A stretch of 43,550 nt of DNA from assembly GCA_014190475.1 (NCBI GenBank), contig BJGL01000012.1, forward strand, positions 1 through 43,550, given 5' to 3'. This document shows, one piece after another, positions 2,343 through 30,742 of the stretch. A program made the position numbers and the translations under genes. The notes under the pieces were generated by a model that was not told the origin of the DNA, searched no databases, and was given only the letters and a program-made list of their open reading frames with translations. The stretch comes from Bacteroidota bacterium. Lineage in GTDB: Bacteria > Bacteroidota > Bacteroidia > Chitinophagales > Chitinophagaceae. Position 1 is the first letter of the stretch; each line of letters opens with the position of its first letter.

Positions 2343-3425
2343 CTATCGGCTTTTAAAATTGCTAATCCCTTTTTTTATAAAATCTTCCCAGCTGTAAAAA
2401 TGAAAAGTTTTGTCTGTACTCATAGCTACAAACAAGCCCTTTTCAAAACCCGGTAGCGGGAAGGCCGTACAATCAGATCCATCAGATTCTTGTGCTGTAA
2501 CGGGAATTGTACCAATATGTTTATGATCGTGCGGGTTGGCTGAACTTCCCTCCAGGGTAAATACCTGAAACTGATTAGCCCCCTGGTCTGACACCAAAAT
2601 ATAACCAGTAGAGTCAGTCAGATGATAAAAAGAAATGCCTTCATTGTCCTCCTTAAAATTTGTTTTTCCAAATAGTGCAAGTTCCTGATCGCCTTTTTTA
2701 GGATCAGCGTGGTATTTTCTAATTCCTATTTGTTCGTCGGAATAATAAATATGTTGATATAATGTATCTACAGCAATAGATTCTATCTCTTTAAACCCAG
2801 AGTATTTTCCAAATTTTCTAGCAACTGTAGCTTCGATTTTACCTTTTTTATTCGGGGCCAATTTATACTGCCACAAATACGATCCTGATGGGCCATTTTT
2901 ACGACCTACAATGACAAACAATGTCCCATCTGACTTGCGTTTATAAAGGGCAACCCCCATAGGCGCTCTTTCTTTTTCGCCAATAAAAACCGGGATACCC
3001 CCATCATCCAGAGGACGCATGGAGGGAAGTTCATAAATACGTATTTGATTTTCTCCTCTCTCTGTTGCTACGGCCAAATCAATAGTACCATTTCCCCAGG
3101 GCACGTTTTGGATTACATCCACGTTGTTCATCCGTTTTAATCCTACTTTGGATCGAATTGAATCAATCTGACCCTTTAGGTCAAATACATAAATACCACC
3201 ATTGAAATTGTCTTTATCTGTTCCCAGAATTAAACTGGCAGCCGGATTTTTGTAGTTGATCCAAATTGCCGGGTCGTCACTGTCCGCAAATACTTTTTGA
3301 GTGATTATTTTAGGCAAAACTGGTTCTTGCTGTGTTGGTATAGAACTGAATGCTGTTGAATAAAAAAAGAAGAGTATACCGGGTAAGCGATATACTCTTC
3401 CTCTATAAGTGGGCATGGATTTCAT
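2343..3425 (-). CDS. Beta-propeller 3-phytase (BPP family)
   Basis: ADSDDPAIWINYKNPAASLILGTDKDNFNGGIYVFDLKG and later DQGANQFQVF / ESDGSDCTAFPLPGFEKGLFVAM are typical of BPP phytases. Confidence 0.9.
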   Translation of the reverse strand: MKSMPTYRGRVYRLPGILFFFYSTAFSSIPTQQEPVLPKIITQKVFADSDDPAIWINYKNPAASLILGTDKDNFNGGIYVFDLKGQIDSIRSKVGLKRMNNVDVIQNVPWGNGTIDLAVATERGENQIRIYELPSMRPLDDGGIPVFIGEKERAPMGVALYKRKSDGTLFVIVGRKNGPSGSYLWQYKLAPNKKGKIEATVARKFGKYSGFKEIESIAVDTLYQHIYYSDEQIGIRKYHADPKKGDQELALFGKTNFKEDNEGISFYHLTDSTGYILVSDQGANQFQVFTLEGSSANPHDHKHIGTIPVTAQESDGSDCTAFPLPGFEKGLFVAMSTDKTFHFYSWEDFIKKGISNFKSR

Positions 3426-3443
3426 ATGCCCAAAGTTAATGGC

Positions 3444-6970: not shown

Positions 6971-8989
6971 ATGTTCCCCTTTCGAGTACCACTTTTATGC
7001 CTCTATCTCTTTGTCAGTACAGGGTCTGTGGCACAAGTTGATTCAAGCAAGAAACTTCCTGCCATAATTATTACGGCAACCAAAACAAAGAGTAGTATCA
7101 CTAAAACTCCTTTTTCTGTTTCCGTACTTGATTCTTCTAAACTTAAGCAAAGCCTCTTGCGTACTGTGCCTGAATCATTAATAGGACTCTCCTGTGTATT
7201 TGTTCAAAAAACTAATCATGGAGGAGGATCACCGATTGTTCGCGGGCTTACCGGAAATCAAAATTTATTATTAATTGACGGGTTTCGTTTGAATAATGCC
7301 ATTTTCAGGTATGGACCAAATCAATATCTGACGTTAGTAGATCCCTTCCTTGTGGAAAGAATCGAAGTTGTAAAAGGAACTGGTTCTGTTCAATTTGGTA
7401 GTGATGCCATGGGGGGTGTTATCAATGTCATTACCCGTCAACCTCGTTTATCTGTCAAACCGGTTTTTTCAAGTACTTTATTGTTGCGAGGAACCAGTCA
7501 GGGAATGGAGCGCACACTGCGTCCTGAAATTCAATTTAGCAATAAAAAAATCGCTACTCTTGTTTCGGGAGTATTTAGCGATTTTGGAGATCTTAAAGGA
7601 GGCGATACTTCGGGTTTTCAAAGACCATCCGGTTACAGACAACAATCTTTGGATGTACGAACAACTATAGGACCTGGAAAAAATTGGAGAGTGCAAATGG
7701 GTATGTCAATTGTCAATCAAAATGATGTTCCGCTGTATCATAAATATCAATTGGAAAAAGTAGCACTTTCTAAGTCTGAGTTATTACAACGGAAAATGGT
7801 TTTTTTAAAAACCCAGAAAAGCTACGCAAATGGTGTTATACGATCGATTACGCTTGATATTTCGCAACAGCAATTGATTGATCACAGACTTTCAAAGTCA
7901 CTAAGCAGCAGTCCGCTGGTGAAAGAGTTTGATACTGTTAACAGTTCGTCAATTACTACTGATATTGCAACGGTATTTACAACATTTTGGAGCGCCAACA
8001 CGGGCGTGGAGTTGAATTTGGATTATGTGAAAAGCACCCGTTTTCAATATAATACACCTATCGATATTGTTTCTAGGAGGGGTCTTTACCCCAATGGAGC
8101 CAGGTATCATAGTTTTGCTGCTTATAATTTACATCATTTTACCCTTAAGCAATTACAAATTGAGACCGGCGTTCGCTTTCATAAAAATAAAATTACTATA
8201 CAGGATGCTTCGATTGGAGCTATTTTGATTAAGCCATCCGCATGGGTTTATATGCTAGGGACATCTTATGCGATTTCCGAGCAGCTAACATTATTCGGTA
8301 ATATTAATTCTGCTTTTCGAGCACCCAATATTGATGATATGGGTACGTTAGGAATAATCGATTTCAGGTATGAGCAGCCTGCATATGATCTCAAACCAGA
8401 GCGTTCGATTAACAAAGAAATGGGAGTGCGATGGAAACAAAGGAATTTTCAAGTTTCAGTGGCTGCCTTTCATGTTACCTTAAAGGATTTAATCGGAAGG
8501 ATTAAAACATCCGCCATCATAAATAACTACCCAGTCTATATTAAAAAGAATATTGAGGAAGCTTTTATCCGCGGGGCAGAATTTGAAATAACCAGCTCCC
8601 CTTTCCCCTTCCTGTTAGTACAGGCTAATCTTTCTTATTTATTTGGACATAACCTAACTCGTAACGAGCCGCTTCGAAGGATTCCACCCATTAATGGCCA
8701 ACTTAGTATCACGTATAGTCGCCGAAAGTGGCAGGCGGGTATTATAAATGATTATGCAACTTCTCAACAAAGACTTGCACAAGGGGATAAAGATGATAAT
8801 AGAATTCCTTTTGGGGGCACCCCGGGTTATACAATATACCACCTCTTTGTGGCAAAGGAAATTGGAAAACTGCAATATCGGTTTCGGCTAAATAATTTAA
8901 TTAATACAGACTATCGCACTCATGGCTCGGGAATAAATTCAATGGGACGATCCTTATCAATTTCTTTATTCTATACGCTTAAAAACTAG
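6971..8989 (+). CDS. TonB-dependent receptor (siderophore/heme-type architecture)
   Basis: TonB-box-like N-terminus, plug GGGSPIVRGLTGNQNLLLIDGFRLNNAIFRYGPNQYLTLVDPFLVERIEVVKGTGSVQFGSDAMGGVINVITR, C-terminal barrel. Confidence 0.92.
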   Translation: MFPFRVPLLCLYLFVSTGSVAQVDSSKKLPAIIITATKTKSSITKTPFSVSVLDSSKLKQSLLRTVPESLIGLSCVFVQKTNHGGGSPIVRGLTGNQNLLLIDGFRLNNAIFRYGPNQYLTLVDPFLVERIEVVKGTGSVQFGSDAMGGVINVITRQPRLSVKPVFSSTLLLRGTSQGMERTLRPEIQFSNKKIATLVSGVFSDFGDLKGGDTSGFQRPSGYRQQSLDVRTTIGPGKNWRVQMGMSIVNQNDVPLYHKYQLEKVALSKSELLQRKMVFLKTQKSYANGVIRSITLDISQQQLIDHRLSKSLSSSPLVKEFDTVNSSSITTDIATVFTTFWSANTGVELNLDYVKSTRFQYNTPIDIVSRRGLYPNGARYHSFAAYNLHHFTLKQLQIETGVRFHKNKITIQDASIGAILIKPSAWVYMLGTSYAISEQLTLFGNINSAFRAPNIDDMGTLGIIDFRYEQPAYDLKPERSINKEMGVRWKQRNFQVSVAAFHVTLKDLIGRIKTSAIINNYPVYIKKNIEEAFIRGAEFEITSSPFPFLLVQANLSYLFGHNLTRNEPLRRIPPINGQLSITYSRRKWQAGIINDYATSQQRLAQGDKDDNRIPFGGTPGYTIYHLFVAKEIGKLQYRFRLNNLINTDYRTHGSGINSMGRSLSISLFYTLKN

Positions 8990-8992
8990 ACT

Positions 8993-11416
8993 ATGAAATA
9001 TCGAGTACTTAACTTCTTGACCTTTTTGACCTTTTCTTTGGCTGGTAATACACAATTGTTGCCTACCGCCGTTCAACTACCAAATGGATGGAAATTAACA
9101 CCAGCCGGTAAGTCTTTTAACTTGGGTGACTTACCATTGAACATGGTTTTAAATCATGCCGGCAACCTTGTTGCGGTTACTAACAATGGGCAAAGCACTC
9201 AATCGATTCAGTTGGTTGATGTGGCCAGTGAGCAAATAGTTGATGAATTGGTCATTCAAAAGTCCTGGTATGGTCTTGCCTTTTCGGCGGACGATAGTAT
9301 TTTATATGCTGCAGGAGGACATGATAATCGAATAATGCTTTACAAGATTCAGCATCAGAAATTAGTTAAATATGATAGCATTTCTTTAGGCAAACCTTGG
9401 CCTGTTCGAATCGGGCCCGCTGGAATTGCAATAGATGAAAAACGAAAGCTTTTATACGTGGTTACACGAGAGGATAAAAAACTGTACCTGATTGATTTAA
9501 AAAATAAGTCAATTCTCGCCACATTTGGATTAGATGCAGAAGCTTATGACTGTAAGATCAGTCCTGATCATCAGGAGCTGTATATTTCTTTATGGGGTGC
9601 AGATAAATTATTGGTCTTTAGTTTAGCTTCAAAGCGATGGACACATTTTATACCCGTAGGTGATAACCCAAATGAGATTTTGATTAGTTCAACAGGTGAT
9701 TTAATTTATGTGTGTAATGCTAATGACAATAGTGTGAGTATTATTGACTCAAAAACTAAGCAAGTTATTGAAACACTTGATGCGGCATTATTTCCAACTT
9801 CTCCCAGTGGTTCTACTTCAAATAGTATAGCACTGGACCCTGGCGGTAAAAAGCTTTATATTGCCAATGCGGATAATAATTGTCTGGCTGTATTTGATGT
9901 AAGTCAAAAGGGAAAAAGTAAGTCTATTGGATTTATTCCCGTGGGGTGGTATCCAACAACAGTTAGATTCATTGCTGGGAAATTGTGGGTGACTAATGGT
10001 AAAGGGGAAACCTCAAAAGCAAATCCATTTGGACCTTCACCGGTTCGTAGTAAAGAAGAAGTAATACACCATGGTTTCAAAACAAAGCCCGGAAACGAAG
10101 TAGAGTATATCGGCGGATTATTTAAAGGGACTATGTCGGTAATTGCTATTCCGAATCCGGTAACCTTAAAGGAATATACCAAAGCAGTTTATTCTAATTC
10201 TCCCTACAGTCAATCACGGTTATTATTAGCCGATAGCTTGGCTCCTGGTTATCCGATTCCAATGACACTTTCAGAAAATGGGAAGGGTACTTCTCCTATA
10301 AAGTATATATTTTATGTAATAAAAGAGAACCGTACTTATGATCAGGTTTTATCAGATCTTCCCAACGGTAATGGAGATTCTTCCTTGCTATTATTTGGAC
10401 GAAAAATTACTCCTAATCAGCATCAACTGGCTGAACAATTTGTTTTGCTGGATAATTTTTATGTAAACTCTGAAGTGAGTGCTGACGGGCATAATTGGAC
10501 CATGGGGGCCTACGCAAATGATTATCTTGAAAAAACCTGGCCCACTAATTACGGTGGACGCGGTGGTAGTTATGGTGGGGAGGGCGAACGTGAAATTGCT
10601 AATAACAAAGCAGGATTTTTTTGGGATAATTGCTATCGTAATGGGGTAAGCTTCAGGTCCTACGGTGAATTTGTAAGTGGAGACAAACCTACTATTAAAG
10701 TTTTACAGAATAATATTTGTCCAAAATTCCCAGACTATAACTTATCAATTCGCGATACAACCCGAATTAGAATTTGGAGAGAAGATTTTGATTCGCTTTT
10801 AGCCAAAAATAAATTACCTCAGTTTAATACTGTTCGGATTGGTAATGATCACACCGAGGGTGTTCGTTTGGGACGTCCTAGCCCATTTGCACATGTTGCG
10901 GATAACGATTTGGCCGTAGGGCTATTAATAGAAAAACTAGCTACTTCATCTATATGGAATGAAACTGCAGTTTTTATAGTAGAAGATGATGCCCAAAATG
11001 GTGCTGACCATATTGATGCTCACCGTAGTACAGCGTATCTGGCCGGAGGATTTGTAAAAAGAGGTTTTGTAGATCATACGCTATATACCACCGCCTCAAT
11101 GTTACGAACAATGGAGTTAATCTTGGGGTTGCCTCCTATGACTCAATATGACGCCGGCGCCACTCCTATGTGGCGATGTTTTGATACGATAGCGCAATCC
11201 TTTTCATACAAAGCCCTTGTGCCTGATGTGGACTTAACCCAAAAAAATACTGTTCGCTCGGAGTGGCAAAGAAGATCAGAACTGTTTGACTATGCAAAAG
11301 AAGATGCCAACAATGATATTGAGTTTAATCGTGTATTATGGCATGGGATAAAGGGCGATATTCCATTCCCCGGACCGCGCAGAGCAGCTTTTGTACTTTC
11401 AACAAAAAGCGAATAA
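8993..11416 (+). CDS. Bifunctional YncE/YVTN-type beta-propeller plus alkaline-phosphatase-superfamily phosphoesterase
   Basis: N-terminal propeller repeats (LYIANADNNCLAVFDV); C-terminal KENRTYDQVLSDLPNGNGDSS...VSADGHNWTMGAYANDY...EDDAQNGADHIDAHRS, as in PF04185-like phosphoesterases. Starts 3 nt after the TonB receptor stop. Confidence 0.88.
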   Translation: MKYRVLNFLTFLTFSLAGNTQLLPTAVQLPNGWKLTPAGKSFNLGDLPLNMVLNHAGNLVAVTNNGQSTQSIQLVDVASEQIVDELVIQKSWYGLAFSADDSILYAAGGHDNRIMLYKIQHQKLVKYDSISLGKPWPVRIGPAGIAIDEKRKLLYVVTREDKKLYLIDLKNKSILATFGLDAEAYDCKISPDHQELYISLWGADKLLVFSLASKRWTHFIPVGDNPNEILISSTGDLIYVCNANDNSVSIIDSKTKQVIETLDAALFPTSPSGSTSNSIALDPGGKKLYIANADNNCLAVFDVSQKGKSKSIGFIPVGWYPTTVRFIAGKLWVTNGKGETSKANPFGPSPVRSKEEVIHHGFKTKPGNEVEYIGGLFKGTMSVIAIPNPVTLKEYTKAVYSNSPYSQSRLLLADSLAPGYPIPMTLSENGKGTSPIKYIFYVIKENRTYDQVLSDLPNGNGDSSLLLFGRKITPNQHQLAEQFVLLDNFYVNSEVSADGHNWTMGAYANDYLEKTWPTNYGGRGGSYGGEGEREIANNKAGFFWDNCYRNGVSFRSYGEFVSGDKPTIKVLQNNICPKFPDYNLSIRDTTRIRIWREDFDSLLAKNKLPQFNTVRIGNDHTEGVRLGRPSPFAHVADNDLAVGLLIEKLATSSIWNETAVFIVEDDAQNGADHIDAHRSTAYLAGGFVKRGFVDHTLYTTASMLRTMELILGLPPMTQYDAGATPMWRCFDTIAQSFSYKALVPDVDLTQKNTVRSEWQRRSELFDYAKEDANNDIEFNRVLWHGIKGDIPFPGPRRAAFVLSTKSE

Positions 11417-11424
11417 CAAAGTTG

Positions 11425-11486
11425 GTAACGTTTCAATAACAGTAGGATTAATTTTTATTAACATTAACAACATTTTTGCATAACAA
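11425..11486 (+). promoter_or_regulatory. Candidate phased Pho-box-like array upstream of susC
   Basis: GTAACGT (11425), ATAACAG (11436), TTAACAT (11458), ATAACAA (11480): all on the same 11-bp register. Confidence 0.5.
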
Positions 11487-11537
11487 TAGATATTGAAATT
11501 GCAGCCTATTAAAACTGAATTTCAAAATCAACTATTT

Positions 11538-14500
11538 ATGCGCAAAAGCGTTTTTTCATTGCTTTGTCTGTTGTTTTCTTTAATGGCAGCAGCACAGCAA
11601 ATTAAAGGAAGAGTATTTAATGAGTCTACAAACGAACCACTTTCGGGTGTCACAATTTTGGTGAAGGAGACAGGTGTTCGCACAATTACTGATAAAGAAG
11701 GAAATTTTACATGTAATGCGGTTATTGGTAACACACTGGAGGTTAGTAGTTCTGGGTTTTTTACTAAGTCTCAAGCGATCGATTCATTATTTCTCACATT
11801 AACCTTAGTCGCTGAAACAAAAGAGCTTGGGGAAGTTGTGGTAACTGCTCTTGGTATAAAAAGAGAAAAGAAAAAGCTGGGTTATGCCATTCAGGAAATA
11901 AAAGGTGAAGACCTGACCATAGCTCGTGAAACAAACGTTGTAAATCAGTTAGCAGGTAAAGTAGCTGGAGTAACCGTGATTGGCAGCCCTTCAGGCGTTG
12001 GCGGTTCTTCCAGGGTTACCATCCGAGGTGAGCGGTCTGTTGATTTAAATAAAAACCAGCCATTATATGTAATTGATGGAGTGCCTATTAGTAATGCAAT
12101 AACCGGTGCTTCTGGACGTTCAAATCTCGAAATTGACTTCGGAAATGGTGCAGGGTTTGTTAATCCGGATGACATAGAATCCATGAGTGTGTTAAAAGGG
12201 CCTGCTGCCTCTGCACTATATGGCTCCCGAGCAGCAAATGGTGTAATTTTAATTAAAACAAAGTCAGGAAAAAAACAAAAAGGGCTCGGTGTTGAATTCA
12301 GTACCAATTCAACATTCGAAACACCATTAAAACTTCCGGAGTATCAAACTGTATATGGACAAGGTAATGGAAGTGGTAGCGCTTTTGCATTTGTGAATGG
12401 AGCTGGGGGTGGTTTAACAGATGGCACAGACGAAGGTTGGGGACCCGCTTTTAATGGTCAGTCTTATCCTCAGTTTAATTCGCCTCGTACACTCAATGGC
12501 CAAGTAATCCCATTCATGGGGGGCGATTTAAATGCGCCTGCCGGAAGTGTAATAACATCTACTCCATGGGTTGCCGATAAGGATAATTTGAAAAATTTTC
12601 TTCAAACAGGAACTACTTTCACCAATAATGTAGCATTGGTAGGTGGGAATAATGATGGAGATTTTCGTCTCAGTTATACTAATTTGAATCAAGTGGGTAT
12701 GATCCCAAACACTGATTTAACCCGAAATACAATTTCTTTGTCAGGGGGCTATAAACTCAACTCTAAGTTTACGGCCAGAGCTTTTGTTTCATACATAAAT
12801 GGGGAAAGTGATAACCGGCCTTCTATCAGCTATGGAACAGAAAGTATCATGTATTTATTTAATTGTTGGTTACCAGCTTCCGTAAAAGTTAGTGATCTTA
12901 AGCGTCTTTGGCAACCTGGCCTAGAGAATGCACGTCAATTTGGTTGGAACTATAATTATCATGACAATCCTTATGTGACTGTTTACAAAAATACAAACGG
13001 GCAGTCTTATAACCGTATTATGGGAAATGTAGTCTTGAAATATGACTTTACTTCTTGGTTAAGTCTGCAGTTTAGGACTGCTACAGATTGGAGTAATGAG
13101 CGTCGAGAATACAGACGTGCATTCAGTACACAACGTTTTCCTTTTGGACAATATCGTGAAACAAACATTATTAATGAGGAGCGCAATACTGACTTTTTGC
13201 TTTCTGCTGCAAAGGGGATCAATGATAAATTTTCATTTAATGCAACTGTAGGAGGTAACGCTATGCAACAAACCTCTTATTTTAATGAAGCAGTAGCAGG
13301 GCAGCTCAATATTCCTGAGGTCTACAGCCTTAATAACTCTAGAATAGCGTTGGTAAATGAACAACGTAATGTAGGAAAGCGAATTAATAGCTTATATGGA
13401 TCTTTTGGAATTTCTTTTGACAATAGAATATTTCTTGACCTCACCGGCCGTAATGATTGGAGTTCAGCATTGACACTGCCAGAGAATTTAAGAATGTTTG
13501 GAATTGAAGATAATTCATATTTCTACTCCTCTGTTGCGCTCAGTGCCGTTATAAGCGAAATGGTGAAACTTCCTAAATTTATCAGCTTCTTAAAGGCGCG
13601 AGGTAGCTTTGCACAAGTTGGAAATGACACTGATCCTTTTGCATACACTCAAACATTTAGTCGTAGTGAACCATTCGGATCCTTCCAGATATATGGTGAA
13701 ACAAGTAGCCTTGCTAACTTGAATTTAAAGCCTGAGATAAGTTCTGCTATTGAAGTAGGTTCTGAGATAAAATTTTGGGGTAATAGATTGGGGCTTGATA
13801 TCACTTATTATAAAAGTAATACCAGTAACCAGATTTTAGCCATTCCCCTCTCAACAACAAGTGGTTATGCTTCTCGCAGAATTAATGCGGGTCTGATTAC
13901 AAACTATGGTGTAGAAGTGATGATAAATGGAACGCCAATTAAAAAGAAAAACTTTACCTGGGATGTCTTTGTGAATTTTTCGGCTAATCGTAGTGAAGTT
14001 CTAGAACTATCTGAAGGACTCACGAATTATGTGATGGCCAGCCGTCGGGTTACCGTCGAGGCAAGAGTCGGAGAACGAATGGGTAGCTTATTTGGGATAG
14101 GGTTTGCACGAGTTCAAAATACAAATCCTGCTGCTCCTTACTATGATGCCAGCGGAAAGTATACCGGTCAAATGGTATTTGGATCCAACGGGCGTCCAAT
14201 TCGTACTACTAATCGTATCTATCTAGGTAACTACAATCCCGACTGGCTTATGGGCGTAGGAAACAGCTTTAATTTTAAGGGTATTAAGTTGAGTTTGTTA
14301 TTTGATATCCGTCAAGGTGGAAAACTTTATTCTGAAACACAGACAGTGGGACGTGAGGGAGGAATCATTATTGAAACGCTTCAGGGACGTGCAAATGGGT
14401 ATGATCTGACTCAAACAGGTAATGGAGTGATTGGGCAAGGTGTTGTACAAAATCCTGATGGAACGTTTACCCCAAATACTACCAAAGTTACTGCACGAGA

Positions 14501-14801
14501 GTGGCATACAGCATGGACAGGTGGACGTGCTATTGCTGAGGGGGTCATGTTTGATGCTTCATTTATTAAGCTTCGCGAGGTACAATTAGGTTATACATTT
14601 CCAGATAAGTGGTTTGTTAAAACTCCTTTCCGTGCTATCAATCTAAGCTTAGTAGGACGCAACCTACTCCTATGGGATAAAGTGCCTCACGTTGATCCGG
14701 AAAATATGTCTTACACAGGCGGAACCGCACTTCCAGGCATTGAAAATATGAGTATGCCTACCTCACGTAGTTATGGAATCAACCTGAGCCTAAAATTTTA
14801 A
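11538..14801 (+). CDS. SusC/RagA-family TonB-linked outer-membrane protein
   Basis: MRKSVFSLLCLLFSLMAAAQQIKGRVFNESTNEPLSGVTILVKETG..., plug VNQLAGKVAGVTVIGSPSGVGGSSRVTIRG, and ...GPAASALYGSRAANGVILIKTK. Start refined from 11493 to 11538 to expose the signal peptide. Confidence 0.95.
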   Translation: MRKSVFSLLCLLFSLMAAAQQIKGRVFNESTNEPLSGVTILVKETGVRTITDKEGNFTCNAVIGNTLEVSSSGFFTKSQAIDSLFLTLTLVAETKELGEVVVTALGIKREKKKLGYAIQEIKGEDLTIARETNVVNQLAGKVAGVTVIGSPSGVGGSSRVTIRGERSVDLNKNQPLYVIDGVPISNAITGASGRSNLEIDFGNGAGFVNPDDIESMSVLKGPAASALYGSRAANGVILIKTKSGKKQKGLGVEFSTNSTFETPLKLPEYQTVYGQGNGSGSAFAFVNGAGGGLTDGTDEGWGPAFNGQSYPQFNSPRTLNGQVIPFMGGDLNAPAGSVITSTPWVADKDNLKNFLQTGTTFTNNVALVGGNNDGDFRLSYTNLNQVGMIPNTDLTRNTISLSGGYKLNSKFTARAFVSYINGESDNRPSISYGTESIMYLFNCWLPASVKVSDLKRLWQPGLENARQFGWNYNYHDNPYVTVYKNTNGQSYNRIMGNVVLKYDFTSWLSLQFRTATDWSNERREYRRAFSTQRFPFGQYRETNIINEERNTDFLLSAAKGINDKFSFNATVGGNAMQQTSYFNEAVAGQLNIPEVYSLNNSRIALVNEQRNVGKRINSLYGSFGISFDNRIFLDLTGRNDWSSALTLPENLRMFGIEDNSYFYSSVALSAVISEMVKLPKFISFLKARGSFAQVGNDTDPFAYTQTFSRSEPFGSFQIYGETSSLANLNLKPEISSAIEVGSEIKFWGNRLGLDITYYKSNTSNQILAIPLSTTSGYASRRINAGLITNYGVEVMINGTPIKKKNFTWDVFVNFSANRSEVLELSEGLTNYVMASRRVTVEARVGERMGSLFGIGFARVQNTNPAAPYYDASGKYTGQMVFGSNGRPIRTTNRIYLGNYNPDWLMGVGNSFNFKGIKLSLLFDIRQGGKLYSETQTVGREGGIIIETLQGRANGYDLTQTGNGVIGQGVVQNPDGTFTPNTTKVTAREWHTAWTGGRAIAEGVMFDASFIKLREVQLGYTFPDKWFVKTPFRAINLSLVGRNLLLWDKVPHVDPENMSYTGGTALPGIENMSMPTSRSYGINLSLKF

Positions 14802-14819: not shown

Positions 14820-16337
14820 ATGAAAAATATAATTCTTGGTATTCTATCTGTATTATTATTTACGAGTTGTACAAAAAATTTTAGGGAAATAAATACCGAT
14901 AGAAATAATCCTACTGCTGTTACTTCTGACCTGTTGTTAAGCGGAATAATTAGCAGTACATTAAATAATCAGGTGGGTGAAGCATGGTCAATCGGAAATC
15001 TTGTTGTACAATACAATGCAAAGATTCAATTTGTTAATGAGGATCGTTACGGTTGGGCAGAGTTAAATTCAATTTGGAATAATGTGTATGGTAACTACCG
15101 AAATTTGCAAAACATTTTCACACAAGTTGGATCAAACACAGCTAGTCCATATTATGGCGTATCCCTCATTTTAAAGTCATGGATGTTCTCACTAGTTGCT
15201 GATGCATATGGAGACGCTCCCTACAGCCAAGCTGGAAAAGGTAAGACTGACGCAGCTTATCAACCTGTTTATGACAAACAAGAAGATATCTATTCAGGAA
15301 TACTTGCCGATTTGAAAAAGGCAAATGAGGTTTTAGCTACAGCTAGTGGGCCATTTTCTGGCGATTTGATTTACGGGGGCGGACCTTCGGCTATAATAAA
15401 ATGGCGCAGGTTAGCTAACTCACTCAGATTGCGATACTTGATGCGATTATCAAAGCAAAAAAGTGTAAGCGCTGAGTTACAGGCTATTTTAAACGACCCT
15501 ATCAATAATCCAATTTTTACAGGAAATTCAGACAATGCAGAATTAAAATATTTGGCAGCAGCTCCAAATCAATGGCCACTATATGGATCAAGAGTTGGTT
15601 CCTTCGATGAGATTCGCTTAAGTAAAACATTTTCGGACCGTTTAACTGCGTTAAACGATCCACGTATCCGGGTTTTTGGTCGCCCTACTCAGAACTCTGT
15701 TACATCCGGCACACCTGTAATTCAGGGAATTCCAAATGGTCTTAGCGACGTTGCGGCACTAGCATTTAATGGGGGTCCACAAAACGTATCAAGAGTGGGT
15801 TACACTTTTGCTTGTCTGGTATGTAATGATCCAGGCCAAGCAGCTCCTATACCTGATGCGCCACGTGGTATATTAATGACCTATGCTGAACTCCAATTTA
15901 TACTTGCTGAAGCCAGGCAAAGAAATTTTATTACAACTGGTACTGCATCTACATATTATAATCAAGGCATAGCAGCTAATTTTTCATATTGGCAATCTGT
16001 TGTGCCAGCAGCCTACAATTTGCAAATTGCTATGCCAACAGTTTATCTGACACAGCCTGCTGTCGAACTCACTGGTACTAATACTGAGATGTTAGGTAAG
16101 ATAGCACTTCAAAAATGGATTGCACTTTACTTTAATGGGCTGGAAGCTTGGTTTGATTGGAAAAGAACTGGTTTACCGGAAATTATTCCAGGTCCCGGCA
16201 ATCTGAATAATAATTTAGTACCTGTTCGCTTCATATACCCTATTAGTGAACAGGCTCTTAATGCCGCAAATCGAGCTGCAGCAGTACAGCGTCAGGGAGC
16301 TGATAATATCAACACACGAACTTGGATAGCTAAGTAG
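14820..16337 (+). CDS. SusD/RagB-family nutrient-binding outer-membrane lipoprotein (SusD-like_2 type)
   Basis: Lipobox LLFTSC; NTDRNNPTAVTSDLLLSGII; directly follows SusC. Confidence 0.92.
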   Translation: MKNIILGILSVLLFTSCTKNFREINTDRNNPTAVTSDLLLSGIISSTLNNQVGEAWSIGNLVVQYNAKIQFVNEDRYGWAELNSIWNNVYGNYRNLQNIFTQVGSNTASPYYGVSLILKSWMFSLVADAYGDAPYSQAGKGKTDAAYQPVYDKQEDIYSGILADLKKANEVLATASGPFSGDLIYGGGPSAIIKWRRLANSLRLRYLMRLSKQKSVSAELQAILNDPINNPIFTGNSDNAELKYLAAAPNQWPLYGSRVGSFDEIRLSKTFSDRLTALNDPRIRVFGRPTQNSVTSGTPVIQGIPNGLSDVAALAFNGGPQNVSRVGYTFACLVCNDPGQAAPIPDAPRGILMTYAELQFILAEARQRNFITTGTASTYYNQGIAANFSYWQSVVPAAYNLQIAMPTVYLTQPAVELTGTNTEMLGKIALQKWIALYFNGLEAWFDWKRTGLPEIIPGPGNLNNNLVPVRFIYPISEQALNAANRAAAVQRQGADNINTRTWIAK

Positions 16338-16360: not shown

Positions 16361-19054
16361 ATGTTAGATATCATTAGATTTTTAGTGCTCTGTGGTTTAT
16401 TCAATTTCATGTTTAAAGCAACAGCACAGGAGCCTGTAATGTTACAAGTACCAGGTGTAAATAAATTTACTAAAATTAGTACTACTGGTCTCTCCGTATT
16501 GCCGAGCGGAAGATACGTGAAACCTGCAGGCGAAGTCTATCAAATTACCAACGACCCTTTTGGATTAGCTATTTCTCCAAGTGGAAGATGGGTGGTGTCT
16601 CTACACAATGGTGTGCTTACCCGTTATGATAATGCTACTAAAGAAATTCAACGAATACCTGATTACAAAAAAACCATTAAATCTCCTTTTCCGAAAGGGT
16701 CATTTCTAGGCATAGCATATGGTAAAAATGACTCTATTTTATATTTAAGTGCAGGAGACAGAGGTACTATCATCTGCTATAATCCTATTCAGTTTGAAAT
16801 AATTGACACTATTGCTTTAAATGGCATTTCAAATAATATCCGTTTTCAAGACAGTTTTACATCTGACTTAGTATATGATCATACCCGAAATGAGTTACTG
16901 GCACTTGACTTGTATAATTATAGATTAGTCCGCATTAATTGTATAAAAAATACTGTAATAAGCTCCATCCAAACCGGGAGGCTTCCCTTTGGACTTTCTA
17001 CATCTCCTGATGGTGCTTATGCATTAGTGGCAAATGTTGGGATGTATGAGTATCCTTTGATTAAAGGGATGACTAGTAGTAATTATGATTCCTTGTTAAT
17101 TTCAAGACATCCTTATGGACATAATACAATTGAATCAAAATCAGGGATTGTCATTGATGGAAAAGTTATACCAGGTGTTGGCGATCCTAACGTAGATGAA
17201 GCAATGAGTGTATATATTATTGATTTATCTACTGAACGCGTGAATTATAAAATTAAAACAGGGTATCAGGTGGGAGAATGGGTTGATGATAAGGAAGTAG
17301 TTGGCGGTTCAAGTCCTAATAGTATAGCGGTTGGCCAACAATTGGCTTATATTACAAACGCTACCAATGATAATATCACCGTATTAGATTATCGAAGTGG
17401 TAAAATCGTAAAACATATACAGCTTTCAATTGATTCAACCTTAGATAAATTACGAGGCTATTTGCCATTTGGTATTGAACTCTCACCCGATGAAAAAAGA
17501 CTGTATGTTGCATTACTTGGACTTAATGCCGTTGCAGTAATTGATACTCGATTGGGAAAGACAGTAGGTTTGATCCCCGCCGGTTGGGGACCTACACGTG
17601 TTAAATTATCAAAAATTGATTCTTCTCTTTTTATTACAAGTTGTAGAGGATTAGGTGCAGGGCCGAATGGGGGACGTGGATTTACAGCTCCCGTACAAGG
17701 CACCTACGTTGGAGATATTCAACTTGCCACATTACAACGAGTTCCATTGCCCGCTGATTCAACACTACAGTCTATGTATGCTGACGTAATCAACTATACC
17801 TATCAACGTACTTATACTAAGCCTACATTTTTGCCAGCTTACCCTGGTGAAAAATCAACACCTATTGAACATATTATATACATAACAAAAGAAAACCGTA
17901 CCTATGATGAGATCTTTGGTCAATTATTAGATGGTAACGGCGATTCTTCATTATCTCGTTTTGGAAATAATGTGAAAGTAGTTAGACAGCGTGATACATT
18001 AGAACATGTTAATGTATCACCTAACCATTCAAAAATTGCACGACAATTTGCTTTTAGTGATAATTTTTATTGTGACAGCGATGCCTCAATTCATGGCCAC
18101 CATTGGATGATGGGAGTGATCCCGAATGAATGGGTTGAGGCAAATTCAAATGCTACAAAAACGGCAATGTATTTTTCAACTGCACCCGGTAGACGTTTCC
18201 CTGGTTCCACCGGCAGCATGGATCCTGAGGATTTTGCTGAAACAGGCGGTTTATGGGAAGCACTTGAACGCAAAGGTATTTCCTTTTATAATTTTGGTGA
18301 AGCAAATGAAACCGCGCATGTTCGTGAAAATTGGTATGATACAGCTACCGGGGCAGCACATGGCGTCATGGTTCCCATGCAGAATGCTTTATATAAAAGA
18401 ACCAGTCAACAATATGCTGGTTATAATACAAATATTCCAGATCAGTTTCGAGTAGAGCAATTTACCGAGGAATTTAAAAAACTATGGATAGAGGGAAAAG
18501 ATTCACTCCCATCAATTATAACCATTCAGCTTCCTAATGATCACGCTTCTTCTCCCCGTCCCGAAGATGGATACCCTTTAATACATAGTTACATCGCTGA
18601 CAATGATTTAGCGCTTGGGCGAATAATTACTTTTTTATCCCAAACACGTTTTTGGAAAAAAATGTTAGTCATTATCACAGAAGATGATCCGCAAGGTGGT
18701 GTAGATCATATTGACGCACATCGCAGTATATTGATGATGGCTGGTCCTTATGTCAAAAGGGAATACGTATCTCATACCCATGCTAATTTTGGCTCTATAC
18801 TAAAGACAATTTATCATCTTTTGGGTGTTCCCTACGTGAATCAATATGATCTTACTGCGTCCTTGTTAGATGATTTTTTTACAGCTGATCCTGACTTTTC
18901 ACCCTATTTATTTCAAAAACCAGATTTACGAATTTTTGACCCTGCTAAGGCGATGAAAAAATATAACCGAAATATCGATTGGAGGCAGATAATCCAAGAC
19001 ATTCCTATCGACGACGTAAACGCAATAAAAAAATTGCATTATAATAATAAGTAA
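16361..19054 (+). CDS. Bifunctional YncE/YVTN-type beta-propeller plus alkaline-phosphatase-superfamily phosphoesterase, paralogue of 8993..11416
   Basis: KENRTYDEIFGQLLDGNGDSSLSRFG...DASIHGHHWMMG...EDDPQGGVDHIDAHRS shares landmark motifs with the first copy. Confidence 0.88.
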   Translation: MLDIIRFLVLCGLFNFMFKATAQEPVMLQVPGVNKFTKISTTGLSVLPSGRYVKPAGEVYQITNDPFGLAISPSGRWVVSLHNGVLTRYDNATKEIQRIPDYKKTIKSPFPKGSFLGIAYGKNDSILYLSAGDRGTIICYNPIQFEIIDTIALNGISNNIRFQDSFTSDLVYDHTRNELLALDLYNYRLVRINCIKNTVISSIQTGRLPFGLSTSPDGAYALVANVGMYEYPLIKGMTSSNYDSLLISRHPYGHNTIESKSGIVIDGKVIPGVGDPNVDEAMSVYIIDLSTERVNYKIKTGYQVGEWVDDKEVVGGSSPNSIAVGQQLAYITNATNDNITVLDYRSGKIVKHIQLSIDSTLDKLRGYLPFGIELSPDEKRLYVALLGLNAVAVIDTRLGKTVGLIPAGWGPTRVKLSKIDSSLFITSCRGLGAGPNGGRGFTAPVQGTYVGDIQLATLQRVPLPADSTLQSMYADVINYTYQRTYTKPTFLPAYPGEKSTPIEHIIYITKENRTYDEIFGQLLDGNGDSSLSRFGNNVKVVRQRDTLEHVNVSPNHSKIARQFAFSDNFYCDSDASIHGHHWMMGVIPNEWVEANSNATKTAMYFSTAPGRRFPGSTGSMDPEDFAETGGLWEALERKGISFYNFGEANETAHVRENWYDTATGAAHGVMVPMQNALYKRTSQQYAGYNTNIPDQFRVEQFTEEFKKLWIEGKDSLPSIITIQLPNDHASSPRPEDGYPLIHSYIADNDLALGRIITFLSQTRFWKKMLVIITEDDPQGGVDHIDAHRSILMMAGPYVKREYVSHTHANFGSILKTIYHLLGVPYVNQYDLTASLLDDFFTADPDFSPYLFQKPDLRIFDPAKAMKKYNRNIDWRQIIQDIPIDDVNAIKKLHYNNK

Positions 19055-19630
19055 ATGAGTAAAAATACCCCAGCTAAAATAGCTGACGAGATTGCGTCTC
19101 TTTTTAATGATCATGGACAAGATGATTACATAGGTGAAAAGGTCTCACAAATACAACATATGACACAATGTGCTGCACTGGCCAGTGCAGCGGGTCATGA
19201 TGAGGAAATAATATTAGCCGCTCTCCTGCATGATATAGGCCATTTGTGTGAATATGTGATGCCCGTGGAACGGATGGAGGAATTTGGTGTAGTTGACCAT
19301 GAGCAATTAGGATACGAATATTTAATGCAGAAATGTTTTAGTGATAAAGTTTGTAAACTTGTTGCTTCTCATGTACAAGCAAAACGCTATTTAACTTATA
19401 AATATCCCCACTATTTAGAACTCTTGTCTGACGCCAGTAAAGCTACCTTAGCATTTCAGGGAGGACCGATGCTTCCTAATGAAGCCACTCGATTTGAACG
19501 CGATCCTTTATTCCAATATTATCTTTTACTCAGACGTTGGGATGATCAGGCAAAAGATCCTACTATTGCCCCCCCTTCAATTGATCATTATCACACAATG
19601 ATTATTCGTCATTTGGATGGCAGGATTTAA
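19055..19630 (+). CDS. HD-domain phosphonate oxygenase, PhnZ-like (phosphonate-operon HDIG family)
   Basis: YIGEKVSQIQHMTQCAALASAAG...AALLHDIGHL...DHEQLG...VASHVQAKRYL...LLLRRWDDQAKDP. Tyr/Glu/His spacing and metal ligands match PhnZ as recalled. Confidence 0.88.
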   Translation: MSKNTPAKIADEIASLFNDHGQDDYIGEKVSQIQHMTQCAALASAAGHDEEIILAALLHDIGHLCEYVMPVERMEEFGVVDHEQLGYEYLMQKCFSDKVCKLVASHVQAKRYLTYKYPHYLELLSDASKATLAFQGGPMLPNEATRFERDPLFQYYLLLRRWDDQAKDPTIAPPSIDHYHTMIIRHLDGRI

Positions 19631-20915
19631 GCTTGTAATGTATAAATTGGCGCGAAAAAAAAATAATTGGCCACAGGTATTTTTTATACTCTATGCATCC
19701 CTTACAGCATTTATTGTATACTCCTGCATGTATGGTGTACGAAAGCCCTACACTGTATCTACTTATGAGGGATTAGAACAGTTTGGGTTTTCATATAAGG
19801 CGGTATTGGTATCTTCTCAAGTATTTGGCTATATGCTGAGTAAATTTATTGGAATCCGATTTATTGCGGAAGTCAAATCACATAACCGCCCATGGTTCAT
19901 CATTGGTTTAATTCTTTTAGGGTGGGTTGCTTTATTTTTTTTTGCTATAGTTCCCTTTCAATATAAATTCATTTTTTTATTCATTAATGGTTTGCCGCTG
20001 GGCATGATATGGGGCTTGGTATTTGGCTATTTAGAGGGCCGTCGAGTTACTGATATATTAGGGGCTGTTTTAGCTACCAGTTTTATTGTTTCTTCCGGTA
20101 TAGCCAAAACCGTGGGGCAATATTTTTTAGTGAAATTATCTGTTGATCAATGGTGGATGCCATTTCTTGTTGCAAGTGTATTTTTAATCCCACTGTTTAT
20201 TTGTACATTTTTTTTGAGTAAAGTCCCCCCACCGGATTATGAAGATTGTTTACAACGAACTCCTCGTACTCCAATGTATGGTAAAGCAAGAGTAAAATTT
20301 TTAAAAGAGTATGCACTCTTTTTAGTCGCACCTATACTTTCTTATATGTTATTGACTGCACTTAGAGATTTTTCTGAAGATTTTATCGTGGAACTTTGGA
20401 ATGAAACTGGTAATAGTGGCCAGTATCTCTTATTTATACAAACAAGTACTATTTCCGGTTTTATTGTTTTATTTGTTGTTGCCGGAATTGTTCTCTTACA
20501 AAATCACTTTAAGGCATTTAGTATTATCCATCTTTTAGTGGGTATGGGCTTCTTGGGTCTCATTGTAAGCACTATTTTGTTTCAGCAGGGCAGGGTTGAT
20601 GCGGTAACATGGATGGTAATTGCCACCACAGCCCTTTACCTTGGTTATGTGGCCTGTAATAGTTTTTTTTATGAGCGATTTGTTGCTGCGTTCCAAATAA
20701 AGGGCAATGTTGGGTTTTTAATGTATATCTCAGATGCTTTCGGCTATCTAGGGACTGTATTTGTTTTATTATTAAAAGAGTATTTTAATTTTTATACAAA
20801 TTGGGTACAATTTTTTTCAACTGCATTTTTAAGTGTAGGCTTCTTTGGAATATTTTTTATTTCTGTATCGCTTTATTTGTTTTCTACAAAATATAAAAAA
20901 GTTAATTATGCCTAG
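19617..20915 (+). CDS. Multi-pass membrane transporter, DUF5690/MFS-like with organophosphate:phosphate-antiporter-like helix 1
   Basis: About 12 hydrophobic segments; YSCMYGVRKPYTVSTYEGLEQFGFS...GYMLSKFIG; ORF overlaps the HD gene by 14 nt (alternative Met at 19638). Confidence 0.75.
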   Translation: MAGFKLVMYKLARKKNNWPQVFFILYASLTAFIVYSCMYGVRKPYTVSTYEGLEQFGFSYKAVLVSSQVFGYMLSKFIGIRFIAEVKSHNRPWFIIGLILLGWVALFFFAIVPFQYKFIFLFINGLPLGMIWGLVFGYLEGRRVTDILGAVLATSFIVSSGIAKTVGQYFLVKLSVDQWWMPFLVASVFLIPLFICTFFLSKVPPPDYEDCLQRTPRTPMYGKARVKFLKEYALFLVAPILSYMLLTALRDFSEDFIVELWNETGNSGQYLLFIQTSTISGFIVLFVVAGIVLLQNHFKAFSIIHLLVGMGFLGLIVSTILFQQGRVDAVTWMVIATTALYLGYVACNSFFYERFVAAFQIKGNVGFLMYISDAFGYLGTVFVLLLKEYFNFYTNWVQFFSTAFLSVGFFGIFFISVSLYLFSTKYKKVNYA

Positions 20916-22032
20916 TAGAGCAATTGTTATAGGAGCAGGAGTGGTGGGTTTAGCCACCGCAAGATCTCTAGCTGAAAATGGATTTCAAGTTGATGTATAT
21001 GAGCGTTCTGCAGCTGCAAAGGGAGCCTCTATCAGAAATTTTGGAATGATTTGGCCAATAGGACAACGATCAGGTATTCAATATGAGAGGGCAATGCGTA
21101 CAAAAGCTATCTGGAAAGAAATATGCTCTGAAATGGGTGCTTGGTTTGACGAGAATGGAAGTTTGCATCTTGCTCAAACAGAGGAAGAGGAGCAAGTGAT
21201 GCATGAAGTAGTGGAAAAATTTTCTTCAGAACGTCCTATATTCTGGGTTGATCGTGTTCATCTTGATAAACTAAGTCCTGCAATTAATAAAAATACCGTG
21301 AGAGGTGCACTTTGGTGCAAGGATGAGGCTTTGCTTGAATCTCGAAAAATAATACGTGATCTTCCTATTTTTTTAAAAGAACGATACCCTATACAATTTT
21401 ATTTTCATCGATCAATCACGGGTATAATTCAAGGAAAAGTATGGGTAGATAATAAAGCCATGGAAGCTGATCTCATTTTTATCTGTTCCGGGGTGGATTT
21501 CTCTAATTTTTTTCCGGAGGAATACCTGCGCAATTTTACCACCTGTAAATTACAAATGATGCGTACCTTTTCGCAGCCAAACCATTGGAAGTTGGGACCT
21601 TCTATATGTGGTGGACTTTCCCTGGCTCATTACCTAAGCTTTGAAGTGGCTCCTTCATTGCCTTTTTTAAAAGATCAACTTGCTAAAAAATATCCAGACT
21701 ATTTGAAATATGGAATACATGTAATGGCATGTCAAAATCATCTTGACGAAATAACAATTGGAGATAGTCATGAGTATGATATGTTGGCTGAGCCATTTAA
21801 TTCGGTTTCTATCCAACAGTTAATTCTTAATTATTTGGAGCAAATTGTACACCTACCTGATTGGCGGATTCAGCAAACATGGAGTGGTTATTATGCTAAG
21901 CTTCGCAATGGCCAGACGGAGTATTTTAAAGAAATCGAACCCGGTATTTGGGCCATTAACGGATTTGGGGGTGCTGGCATGACGCTCTCTTTTGGAACAA
22001 TTGAAGAATTATGTCAAGGGATGAGGCCGTAA
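20908..22032 (+). CDS. FAD-dependent oxidoreductase of the phosphonate-associated DAO-superfamily clade (TIGR03364-like)
   Basis: MPSRAIVIGAGVVGLATARSLAENGFQVDVYERS (Rossmann GxGxxG), then AKGASIRNFGMIWPIGQ and C-terminal GIWAINGFGGAGMTLSFG. Start refined to 20908 (8-nt overlap with the transporter). Confidence 0.88.
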   Translation: MPSRAIVIGAGVVGLATARSLAENGFQVDVYERSAAAKGASIRNFGMIWPIGQRSGIQYERAMRTKAIWKEICSEMGAWFDENGSLHLAQTEEEEQVMHEVVEKFSSERPIFWVDRVHLDKLSPAINKNTVRGALWCKDEALLESRKIIRDLPIFLKERYPIQFYFHRSITGIIQGKVWVDNKAMEADLIFICSGVDFSNFFPEEYLRNFTTCKLQMMRTFSQPNHWKLGPSICGGLSLAHYLSFEVAPSLPFLKDQLAKKYPDYLKYGIHVMACQNHLDEITIGDSHEYDMLAEPFNSVSIQQLILNYLEQIVHLPDWRIQQTWSGYYAKLRNGQTEYFKEIEPGIWAINGFGGAGMTLSFGTIEELCQGMRP

Positions 22033-22131
22033 TATAATTCTAATTCACAGGTAATCCACATTATTTCAGGGTCATATTTAGATAACAGTTTGCTAATAAA
22101 TCAATAATGATAGGGGGAGAACTTTATTCAA

Positions 22132-22401
22132 ATGTTTTCTATGGAATCCATAGTAACAACTCATACATTAAGACTTATTCATCAAGGGGTATTCAACCGA
22201 TTTACTGACCTTCAATTGTCTCAGGTATATATTAATTTATTAAGACCTCGCTCTCTCAAAACAGATCATCAATTATTGCAGTTTTGGTACAAAGGTGATT
22301 TTTCAGCGGCACAAATTACTTTTCAACTTATCAGTGCAACAAATAAAATTTTAGCATCATATAATCAACCAATTATTGAAGGATATATTCAAATTGTCTG
22401 A
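22132..22401 (+). CDS. Hypothetical protein (89 aa) inside the phosphonate gene cluster
   Basis: Complete ORF filling the gap between the FAD oxidoreductase and the HAD hydrolase, same strand, 8 nt before the HAD ATG. No family recognised. Confidence 0.6.
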   Translation: MFSMESIVTTHTLRLIHQGVFNRFTDLQLSQVYINLLRPRSLKTDHQLLQFWYKGDFSAAQITFQLISATNKILASYNQPIIEGYIQIV

Positions 22402-22409
22402 TTAAAACT

Positions 22410-23120
22410 ATGATAACAGCTAAGTTCAAAATGGTTGTATTTGATTTGGCAGGTACTGTAATCAATGAAAATAATTTAGTATACCACACCATTCACAACG
22501 TCTTGGTAAATGCTGGATATGATGTGTCACTTGAAACGGTACTAACTATTGGATCCGGAAAAGAAAAATTTCAAGCAATTAGTGATATACTTCAATTTAA
22601 AAAAGTAATTATTTCTATTGCAGAACTTTCACTTCTTTATCATAAATTTTTAAGTCAGTTACAAATTTCTTATGAAAAACTTCCTGTCAATAGTTTTCCC
22701 TTTGCCGAGGAATTATTCACGATGCTACACCATCATCAAATCTTGGTAGTATTTAATACCGGATATAACCGTTCTACTGCAGAGCTGCTTTTAGAAAAAG
22801 TAAAATGGAAGCCCCGGGTAAATTATGATTTACTTGTAACATCCTCAGAGGTTAATAATGGTAGACCGTCCCCAGATATGATTATAAGAGCCATGGCTAT
22901 GCTGGGGCTTAAAAAGCCTGATAAAATTGTAAAGATTGGAGACTCTTGTGCAGATATATTAGAGGGTCATGCCGCACAATGTGGAATGGTAATTGGTATA
23001 ACAACAGGTGCCCAGCAGCGTGAAGATCTTCAAAAAGTGAAACCTCATTTTATTATTGACTCATTGCGGGAACTTCCTACATTACTCAATTTACCCTCTC
23101 GAGTTAACAAATTTTTATAA
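22410..23120 (+). CDS. Phosphonatase-like HAD hydrolase (PhnX-related, TIGR03351-like)
   Basis: VVFDLAGTVINENNLVYHTIHNVL (DxAGT as in phosphonatases), GSGKEKF, VTSSEVNNGRPSPDMIIRAM, KIGDSCADILEG. Confidence 0.88.
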   Translation: MITAKFKMVVFDLAGTVINENNLVYHTIHNVLVNAGYDVSLETVLTIGSGKEKFQAISDILQFKKVIISIAELSLLYHKFLSQLQISYEKLPVNSFPFAEELFTMLHHHQILVVFNTGYNRSTAELLLEKVKWKPRVNYDLLVTSSEVNNGRPSPDMIIRAMAMLGLKKPDKIVKIGDSCADILEGHAAQCGMVIGITTGAQQREDLQKVKPHFIIDSLRELPTLLNLPSRVNKFL

Positions 23121-29278: not shown

Positions 29279-29317
29279 GTGTCATGGAGTTTTGCACTCA
29301 AACAAATCAAAACTGTC

Positions 29318-30742
29318 ATGAGATTTTATTCAAGTTTAGTACTATCACTATTAGTAGTGTTGGTGAGTTGCAAACGTGAAAAAGTAACTCCTATAGACAA
29401 AGCTGAGTTTAGAGATCGTTCAAATGCGGAAGCCTTTGTTACTATTGAGCCCGAATTTGCTTCTACTGTAAAAGCTTATACCTTAATCAGCAGCAGCGAT
29501 ACAATCAAAAGCACTCCAAGTTTTATCTACGGAGGTGCCCCCGACGGTCAAGGTTTTTTAAAAAACCCTGATGGTACTGGCTATATTATGGTAACTAATC
29601 ATGAAAACACGTGGGCAATTTCTCGCGTTTATCTTGATAAAAAACTGAACCCAGTTAAGGGTGAATACATTGTTAATACAGATGGTGGTATGTTCAGATT
29701 ATGCTCTGGATCTTTGGCAACTCCTGAGGAACATGGATTTCCGCAAGCATTATTCTTAAGTACTGGTGAAAGCAATGTCAACGCAATGACACATGCCATT
29801 GATCCTATTGCTCCTGCAAATCCATCTAATCAAAGTCGTGTTAAACCTGCACTTGGCAAGTTCAGCGGAGAGAATTCTGTGCCATTAACTAAGTTGGCTT
29901 ATCCAGGCAAAACAGTTATCATTCTTGGTGAAGACGCTGGTAACGGACAGGTTTATCTTTATGTCTCCAATACTCCGGGGGATTTAGAAAATGGTAAGTT
30001 TTATGCTCTACGTAGAACAAACTTGGATCAGATAGAAAAAAATATGACCAAGGGTAATACGTATCCTGTAGAATTTGTAGAAGTTCCTAATGCAAAAAAT
30101 TTGACCGGAGCCGAAATTGAAAATCTAAATACTTCACTCAAATCTATTCAATTTGCTCGTGTTGAAGATTTAGATTATAGAAAGGGAAGTGCAGTAAATA
30201 ATCGTGAGATTTACTTTGTAGCAACCGGAATGTCAGGTGCTCCTGATAAAACATATTGGGGGCGTATGTATCGTTTGAAACTTACAGAGTCTTCTCCACT
30301 CAACGGTACTTTGGAAGTGGTAGAAGATGGTGACTTAGAACCTGGTACTGGGATCATTAATCCAGATAATCTGTGTGTAACAAAAAATTTTGTATATATC
30401 CAAGAAGATGGTGATTCATTCTTCCCTGGCGCAACACATAACTCACTGATTTGGCAGTGGAATATTGCTACAGGCGTAAAGAAGAGAATGCTAGATATGA
30501 AAAATAAGACTGCCGGTGGAACAAAATTTAATCCAACCAACGATCAACGCTTTGGACTTTGGGAACATGGCGCAATGATTGATATATCTGAAACAATTGG
30601 TGAGTCAGATGTGTTTTTAATTAATATTCACGCGCATAGCTGGGTAGAGAACGATCGTTTCCTAAACCCCAGTAAGGCTACAGCTGTTCAAGCTTACAAA
30701 GCTGGTGGTCAGACGCTCATACTGAAGGGCGTACCTCGCTAA
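29318..30742 (+). CDS. PhoX/DUF839-like alkaline phosphatase-family lipoprotein
   Basis: Lipobox LLVVLVSCKRE; GTGYIMVTNHENTW, RVEDLDYRKGSAVNNREIYFVATGMSG...GRMYRLKL...GIINPDNLCVTKNFVYIQEDGDS resemble the PhoX core. Start refined to 29318. Confidence 0.75.
   Translation: MRFYSSLVLSLLVVLVSCKREKVTPIDKAEFRDRSNAEAFVTIEPEFASTVKAYTLISSSDTIKSTPSFIYGGAPDGQGFLKNPDGTGYIMVTNHENTWAISRVYLDKKLNPVKGEYIVNTDGGMFRLCSGSLATPEEHGFPQALFLSTGESNVNAMTHAIDPIAPANPSNQSRVKPALGKFSGENSVPLTKLAYPGKTVIILGEDAGNGQVYLYVSNTPGDLENGKFYALRRTNLDQIEKNMTKGNTYPVEFVEVPNAKNLTGAEIENLNTSLKSIQFARVEDLDYRKGSAVNNREIYFVATGMSGAPDKTYWGRMYRLKLTESSPLNGTLEVVEDGDLEPGTGIINPDNLCVTKNFVYIQEDGDSFFPGATHNSLIWQWNIATGVKKRMLDMKNKTAGGTKFNPTNDQRFGLWEHGAMIDISETIGESDVFLINIHAHSWVENDRFLNPSKATAVQAYKAGGQTLILKGVPR

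Follow-up and report, generated by a model that had tools for sequence, protein, structure and literature searches.

A likely phosphonate-utilization operon with two predicted C-P bond-cleaving branches in a Chitinophagaceae-type bacterium

We analyzed a stretch of 43,550 nt (hereafter the window), contig BJGL01000012.1 of the Bacteroidota assembly GCA_014190475.1, in which positions 19055-23120 carry genes for a PhnZ-like HD oxygenase (HD), a DUF5690 permease, a FAD-dependent amine oxidase (FAD), an 89-residue protein and a phosphonatase-like HAD hydrolase (HAD). We consider it likely that these genes belong to a phosphonate-utilization operon in which two parallel branches, each cleaving a carbon-phosphorus (C-P) bond, lie behind one import route. 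Such genes would most likely allow a Chitinophagaceae-type bacterium to import C-P compounds and to release phosphate from them by two known chemistries. In one branch, the predicted PbfD-type FAD would oxidatively deaminate 2-aminoethylphosphonate (AEP) and N-methyl-AEP to phosphonoacetaldehyde, and HAD, the predicted phosphonoacetaldehyde hydrolase, would use a Schiff base on its cap lysine to split this into phosphate and acetaldehyde, as suggested by the protein families, the conserved residues and the chemistry of homologues. In the other, HD is predicted to cleave imported (R)-1-hydroxy-2-aminoethylphosphonate (R-HAEP), or an N-methylated form of it, to glycine or N-methylglycine plus phosphate. 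An initial annotation of the region had offered a parallel scheme of this kind, with FAD feeding HAD and HD taking hydroxy-AEP, and this is the best-supported model in light of the families, the residues and the modular occurrence of HD.

The families of the window proteins were determined by NCBIfam and Pfam profile searches with curated cut-offs. FAD passes the cut-off of TIGR03364 (358.1 versus 285.1 bits), and TIGR03364 enzymes (PbfD) have been proven to convert N-methyl-AEP and AEP to phosphonoacetaldehyde, thereby substituting for PhnW (PMC10590968). By this comparison FAD can be regarded as a recognized replacement of PhnW, and PhnW would then not be needed. The gene also keeps company with other phosphonate genes: HAD lies in the same operon, FAD and HAD occur together in 78 loci of the survey described below, and a homologue on a Gloeocapsa plasmid (42% identity) adjoins genes for a HAD hydrolase and an annotated AEP ABC transporter.

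HAD was aligned with the Bacillus cereus phosphonatase, the sequence of which matches PDB 2iof except at the N-terminus. The DxAGT nucleophile motif is kept (D12, A14 and T16), as are K53, R152, D178 and D182; from established PhnX work we take K53 to be the Schiff-base lysine of the cap and R152 to be the arginine that replaces the usual HAD lysine. The cap lysine and the arginine are each retained in 91 of 91 HAD homologues, and the catalytic residues are intact. Two PhnX active-site positions are changed (M49 to S and H56 to A). The cap motif, GSGKEK, places HAD in a subgroup of relatives of the GxGKEK type, which is also found in Flavobacteriia operons.

A comparison with proteins of solved structure matched HD to PhnZ (4mlm; E 7.5e-41, 143 bits) and to TmpB (6npa; E 7.9e-30, 107 bits), PhnZ thus being the closer of the two. 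In an alignment with both proteins, the PhnZ residues H34, H58, D59, H80, H104 and D161 are all identical in HD, as are Y24, E27, H62, K108, S126 and R158. The former are the six Fe ligands and the latter are substrate residues, phosphonate-binding ones among them, roles that we take from established PhnZ structure work, and by this measure the catalytic residues of HD are also intact. If R-HAEP is imported, no PhnY* is needed to make it. PhnZ homologues have been found within PhnWX and PhnWAY clusters, and PhnZ never co-occurs with PbfA, another R-HAEP enzyme (PMC8154272); together, these two observations make a branch for imported R-HAEP the simplest reading for HD. PbfA might instead be the enzyme that takes hydroxy-AEP; the only candidates for it in the source genome are two class III aminotransferase genes, neither of which is on the contig of the window.

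The initial annotation had remarked that PhnY, PhnW, PhnA and C-P lyase are not visible in the window, and the whole source genome was searched for them. Profile searches of this genome, which is 98.7% complete, found no PhnW (best match 28.7 bits, cut-off 400.8), no PhnA (23.6 bits, cut-off 407.6), no PhnJ of the C-P lyase and no linked PhnY*. A PhnY/PhnW pair elsewhere in the genome was also looked for; there is no PhnW, and the single PhyH-family protein, encoded on another contig, is weakly hydroxylase-like, matching the methylphosphonate hydroxylase model at 24.6 bits (cut-off 500). A hidden PhnW, PhnA, PhnJ or linked PhnY* in this genome is ruled out by these sub-cut-off or absent matches.

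Related loci were surveyed in 299 genomes of the same taxonomic family, about 83 of which have a near-full-length HD and about 137 a DUF5690 gene. The commonest order in 40 fetched HD loci was SusC-SusD-(phosphoesterase)-HD-HAD-DUF5690-FAD. A set of 137 unique loci was assembled by combining the HD loci with 20 further regions and with DUF5690 loci taken from another collection of genomes; as loci were picked by HD or DUF5690 matches, the counts show composition and not prevalence. HD, FAD and HAD occur together in 48 of these loci and HD with FAD in 8, and the 78 loci with FAD and HAD include 28 that have no HD. HD itself is accompanied by FAD in 59 of 62 loci and by HAD or PhnA in 53 of 62. 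Because HD can be missing beside FAD and HAD, parallel branches are favored over serial ones. A few loci, among them the HD loci L043, L073 and L140, have PhnA, a phosphonoacetate hydrolase, and a phosphonoacetaldehyde dehydrogenase, and lack HAD; in loci L075, L076 and L095 a HAD is adjoined by HpnZ (TIGR03366), which has been proposed to be an alcohol dehydrogenase associated with phosphonates, and two of these (L075 and L076) have two HADs each. The window represents a variant order in which HAD is last and is preceded by the 89-residue gene. Exactly this order, the small ORF included, is found in the related metagenome-assembled genome UBA2467 (L101), and the arrangement is therefore not a chance one. 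The gene set is not exceptional.

How would the substrates enter the cell? An AlphaFold2 model of DUF5690 is a helical permease (pLDDT 89), for which the best Foldseek matches are the glucose-6-phosphate:phosphate antiporters G6PT/SLC37A4 (TM approximately 0.66), but other major-facilitator proteins score close behind, so that the match places the fold and not the family. GlpT (1pw4) was matched as well (E 2.8e-6), and the DUF5690 sequence profile matched no PDB chain up to E = 1. We predict that DUF5690 is an inner-membrane phosphonate importer of the organophosphate:phosphate antiporter type; its fold and its associations suggest that it moves free phosphonate inward, probably in exchange for phosphate. 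In the family survey, HD is accompanied by DUF5690 in 82 of the 83 genomes that have it (Fisher p 2e-35), and in one locus (L097) a genuine PhnW (492 bits, 10549-11658) directly adjoins DUF5690. The domain, for which a function is hereby predicted, occurs across Bacteroidota and in some Gammaproteobacteria. DUF5690 is not a phosphonate-exclusive family, as 27 of 110 long DUF5690 loci are without any phn gene. In loci such as L081, L105, L135 and L169, DUF5690 has no phosphonate gene among its neighbors.

Several observations weigh against the two-branch scheme. HD falls slightly below the TIGR03276 cut-off (209.2 versus 214.6 bits), which most HD orthologues of the same taxonomic family also narrowly miss. 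HAD is below the cut-off of TIGR03351 (PhnX-like; 185.6 versus 218.9 bits), although this is its best-scoring family, and three operon relatives, scoring 198-211, are also under it; against TIGR01422 (PhnX) HAD scores 93.3 bits, short of the cut-off of 220. FAD is only approximately 27% identical to the TIGR03364-like sequences found in A. baumannii, so that either AEP or N-methyl-AEP may be its preferred substrate. R-HAEP has been recorded from few organisms, and the DUF5690 loci lacking phn genes count on the same side.

One could envision, following the original TIGRFAM proposal, that the substrate of FAD is hydroxy-AEP or some other alpha-hydroxy aminophosphonate, that its deamination yields a hydroxylated phosphonoacetaldehyde, which HAD then cleaves, and that HD takes a different alpha-hydroxyphosphonate. 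The divergence of FAD, the TIGR03364 family description, which suggests HAEP, the two changed positions in HAD and the standing of PhnX-like proteins as a family apart from true PhnX would all fit such a route. However, the characterized PbfD enzymes use N-methyl-AEP and AEP (PMC10590968), and an FAD acting on hydroxy-AEP would make HD redundant, yet HD behaves as an optional extra beside FAD and HAD. We therefore think that this route is unlikely; the undescribed substrate that the initial annotation had allowed for is not required by any result. Less probable still is a conventional PhnY*-PhnZ pathway, in which the unlinked PhyH protein would supply hydroxy-AEP to HD. The source genome does have one PhyH gene with a weak match to the hydroxylase model, and 54 of 60 HD genomes encode PhyH proteins, but the score lies far under the cut-off, the gene is unlinked to HD, none of the PhyH matches listed for the 60 genomes falls within 20 kb of HD, and 6 of the 60 have no PhyH match at all. 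Finally, HAD and HD might be ordinary phosphatases or phosphohydrolases serving general organic-phosphate scavenging, with the C-P bond left untouched. The nearby phytase, PhoX-like and PF04185 phosphoesterase genes agree with this idea, as does the fact that both superfamilies consist mostly of phosphatases. It is nevertheless very improbable, given the invariance of the cap lysine and arginine that distinguish phosphonatases, the conservation in HD of all PhnZ residues compared, and the equivalent neighborhoods of relatives, which include PhnA, phosphonoacetaldehyde dehydrogenase or HpnZ.

The five ORFs of 19055-23120 are co-directional and closely packed at the coordinates first given for them (Table 1). 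As the initial annotation had described, the gaps are short or negative: DUF5690 overlaps the end of HD by 14 nt, FAD overlaps DUF5690 by 8 nt, the gap before the 89-residue ORF is 99 nt (first put at about 100), and 8 nt separate this ORF from HAD. The limits drawn for the operon were probably too narrow. The plus-strand run extends back from HD through a phosphoesterase gene, the stop codon of which abuts the HD start (0-nt gap), to SusD and SusC, all of which had been left out. SusC is the probable first gene of the locus, and the operon start probably lies upstream, at SusC/SusD and the secreted phosphoesterase, rather than at HD. Promoter and terminator scans scored no better than shuffles. 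Downstream, a family 2 glycosyltransferase (GT2) gene overlaps HAD by 1 nt.

Table 1. Genes of the candidate phosphonate locus and of its phosphorus-related surroundings in the window
Feature	Position	Strand	Basis
Phytase with TonB receptor	2343-6293	-	
Second TonB receptor with propeller-phosphoesterase	6971-11416	+	
SusC/RagA-type TonB-dependent outer-membrane transporter	11493-14801 (likely start ATG 11538)	+	TIGR04056, 626 bits
SusD-like outer-membrane lipoprotein	14820-16337	+	PF12771, E 3e-94
Secreted beta-propeller + PF04185 phosphoesterase (phospholipase C/acid phosphatase superfamily)	16361-19054	+	Family search
Phn-HD/PhnZ-family diiron oxygenase (HD)	19055-19630	+	TIGR03276, E 3e-62, 209.2 bits
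DUF5690 major-facilitator-type permease	19617-20915	+	PF18943, E 1e-138
TIGR03364/PbfD-type FAD amine oxidase (FAD)	20908 (ATG)-22032	+	TIGR03364, 358.1 bits
89-residue gene, no family assigned by NCBIfam/Pfam	22132-22401	+	Conservation with L101 orthologue
Phosphonatase-like HAD (PhnX-like)	22410-23120	+	TIGR03351, 185.6 bits; TIGR01422, 93.3 bits
PhoX-like gene	29279-30742	+	

With its further phosphatase and TonB receptor genes, the window resembles an island for phosphorus scavenging, within which the operon would lie. Passage through the outer membrane may be provided by the SusC/SusD pair, the cargo being either phosphonates or phosphonate esters that the secreted phosphoesterase has cut. 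A SusD-like gene is kept ahead of the phn genes in relatives; a SusD-family gene lies within 8 kb in 48 of the 62 HD-containing DUF5690 loci, and SusC in 41. Of the 83 phn-type DUF5690 loci, 52 have a SusD-family gene nearby and 42 a phosphoesterase, whereas the corresponding counts for the 27 non-phn loci are 5 (p 1e-4) and 0 (p 3e-7). A Hymenobacter plasmid groups SusC, SusD, two phosphatase-superfamily genes, HAD, an XRE regulator and TIGR03364. A more speculative extension, to which we give limited credence, would make everything from SusC through HAD a Bacteroidota locus dedicated to phosphonates in bound form. Phosphonolipids or phosphonoglycans would be the sources from which the secreted propeller-phosphoesterase frees AEP, N-methyl-AEP and hydroxy-AEP, SusCD would capture these compounds, and DUF5690 would represent a new family of phosphonate permeases exchanging them for phosphate. 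An XRE-cupin regulator gene recurs near SusC or HAD in relatives (for example, L041, 1827-2408), and none was seen in the operon of the window.

The region had been presented as combining two C-P-cleaving enzymes with no canonical partners. The lack of PhnW, PhnA and PhnJ bears this out, but the implied oddity was overstated, because PbfD replaces PhnW, PhnZ-containing clusters have been tabulated and Achromobacter has an hpnW-phnX-phnHD cluster. In Mariniblastus fucicola (PMC10590968), the PbfD2-PhnX pathway likewise has a PbfD-type FAD oxidase adjoining a phosphonatase in a genome without PhnW; the window adds HD, DUF5690 and SusCD, and its HAD is of the TIGR03351 type, not scoring as PhnX. 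The Achromobacter cluster (PMC11203657) shares the FAD oxidase, the phosphonatase and Phn-HD, and lacks PhnW and PhnY*, but it has PhnSTU and a LysR regulator, with a separate phnW elsewhere, whereas the window has DUF5690 and SusCD; relatives, but not the window itself, carry an XRE-cupin regulator. The PhnWX and PhnWAY clusters (PMC8154272, Table 1) resemble the window in adding a PhnZ-family enzyme to a phosphonoacetaldehyde pathway without PhnY*, and differ in that FAD stands in PhnW's place in the window. The single-gene major facilitator superfamily phosphonate permease AepP of Pseudomonas putida, a GlpT-related AEP permease (PMC8316502), offers a parallel to DUF5690, which is linked to it by fold only, with no solved chain matched by sequence profile and with its phosphonate substrate predicted. 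In Flavobacterium, genes for phosphoesterases and for enzymes that degrade phosphonates are known to lie together with the PusCD phosphate utilization systems (PMC8115612); PhnZ, PbfD and DUF5690 are unnamed in the portion of that account drawn on here, relative to which the window is a Chitinophagaceae-type version. The enzymes are of known kinds in a known combination, and the Bacteroidota importer and outer-membrane parts have been little described so far. What is new here is the import module and the function predicted for DUF5690: the locus links the use of phosphonates to uptake by SusCD in a group, the Bacteroidetes, whose plant-associated members are reported to be without common organic-phosphorus transporters (PMC8115612). 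The role of Phn-HD without PhnY* was called unresolved by the Achromobacter authors (PMC11203657), and the locus provides a test bed for this role where PhnY* is absent.

The 89-residue gene is 51% identical to its orthologue in L101, with pN 0.34 versus pS 0.69, and is by these values a real coding gene under purifying selection. Weak homologues occur in six other genomes of the family, several near uvrD-type helicase genes and others near unrelated genes, away from phosphonate genes. A part for the protein in the pathway is disfavored by these neighborhoods, and the gene is likely a passenger. A GVFN(H/R)...YWY/FWY pattern is conserved in the small, unnamed family of which the protein is a member.

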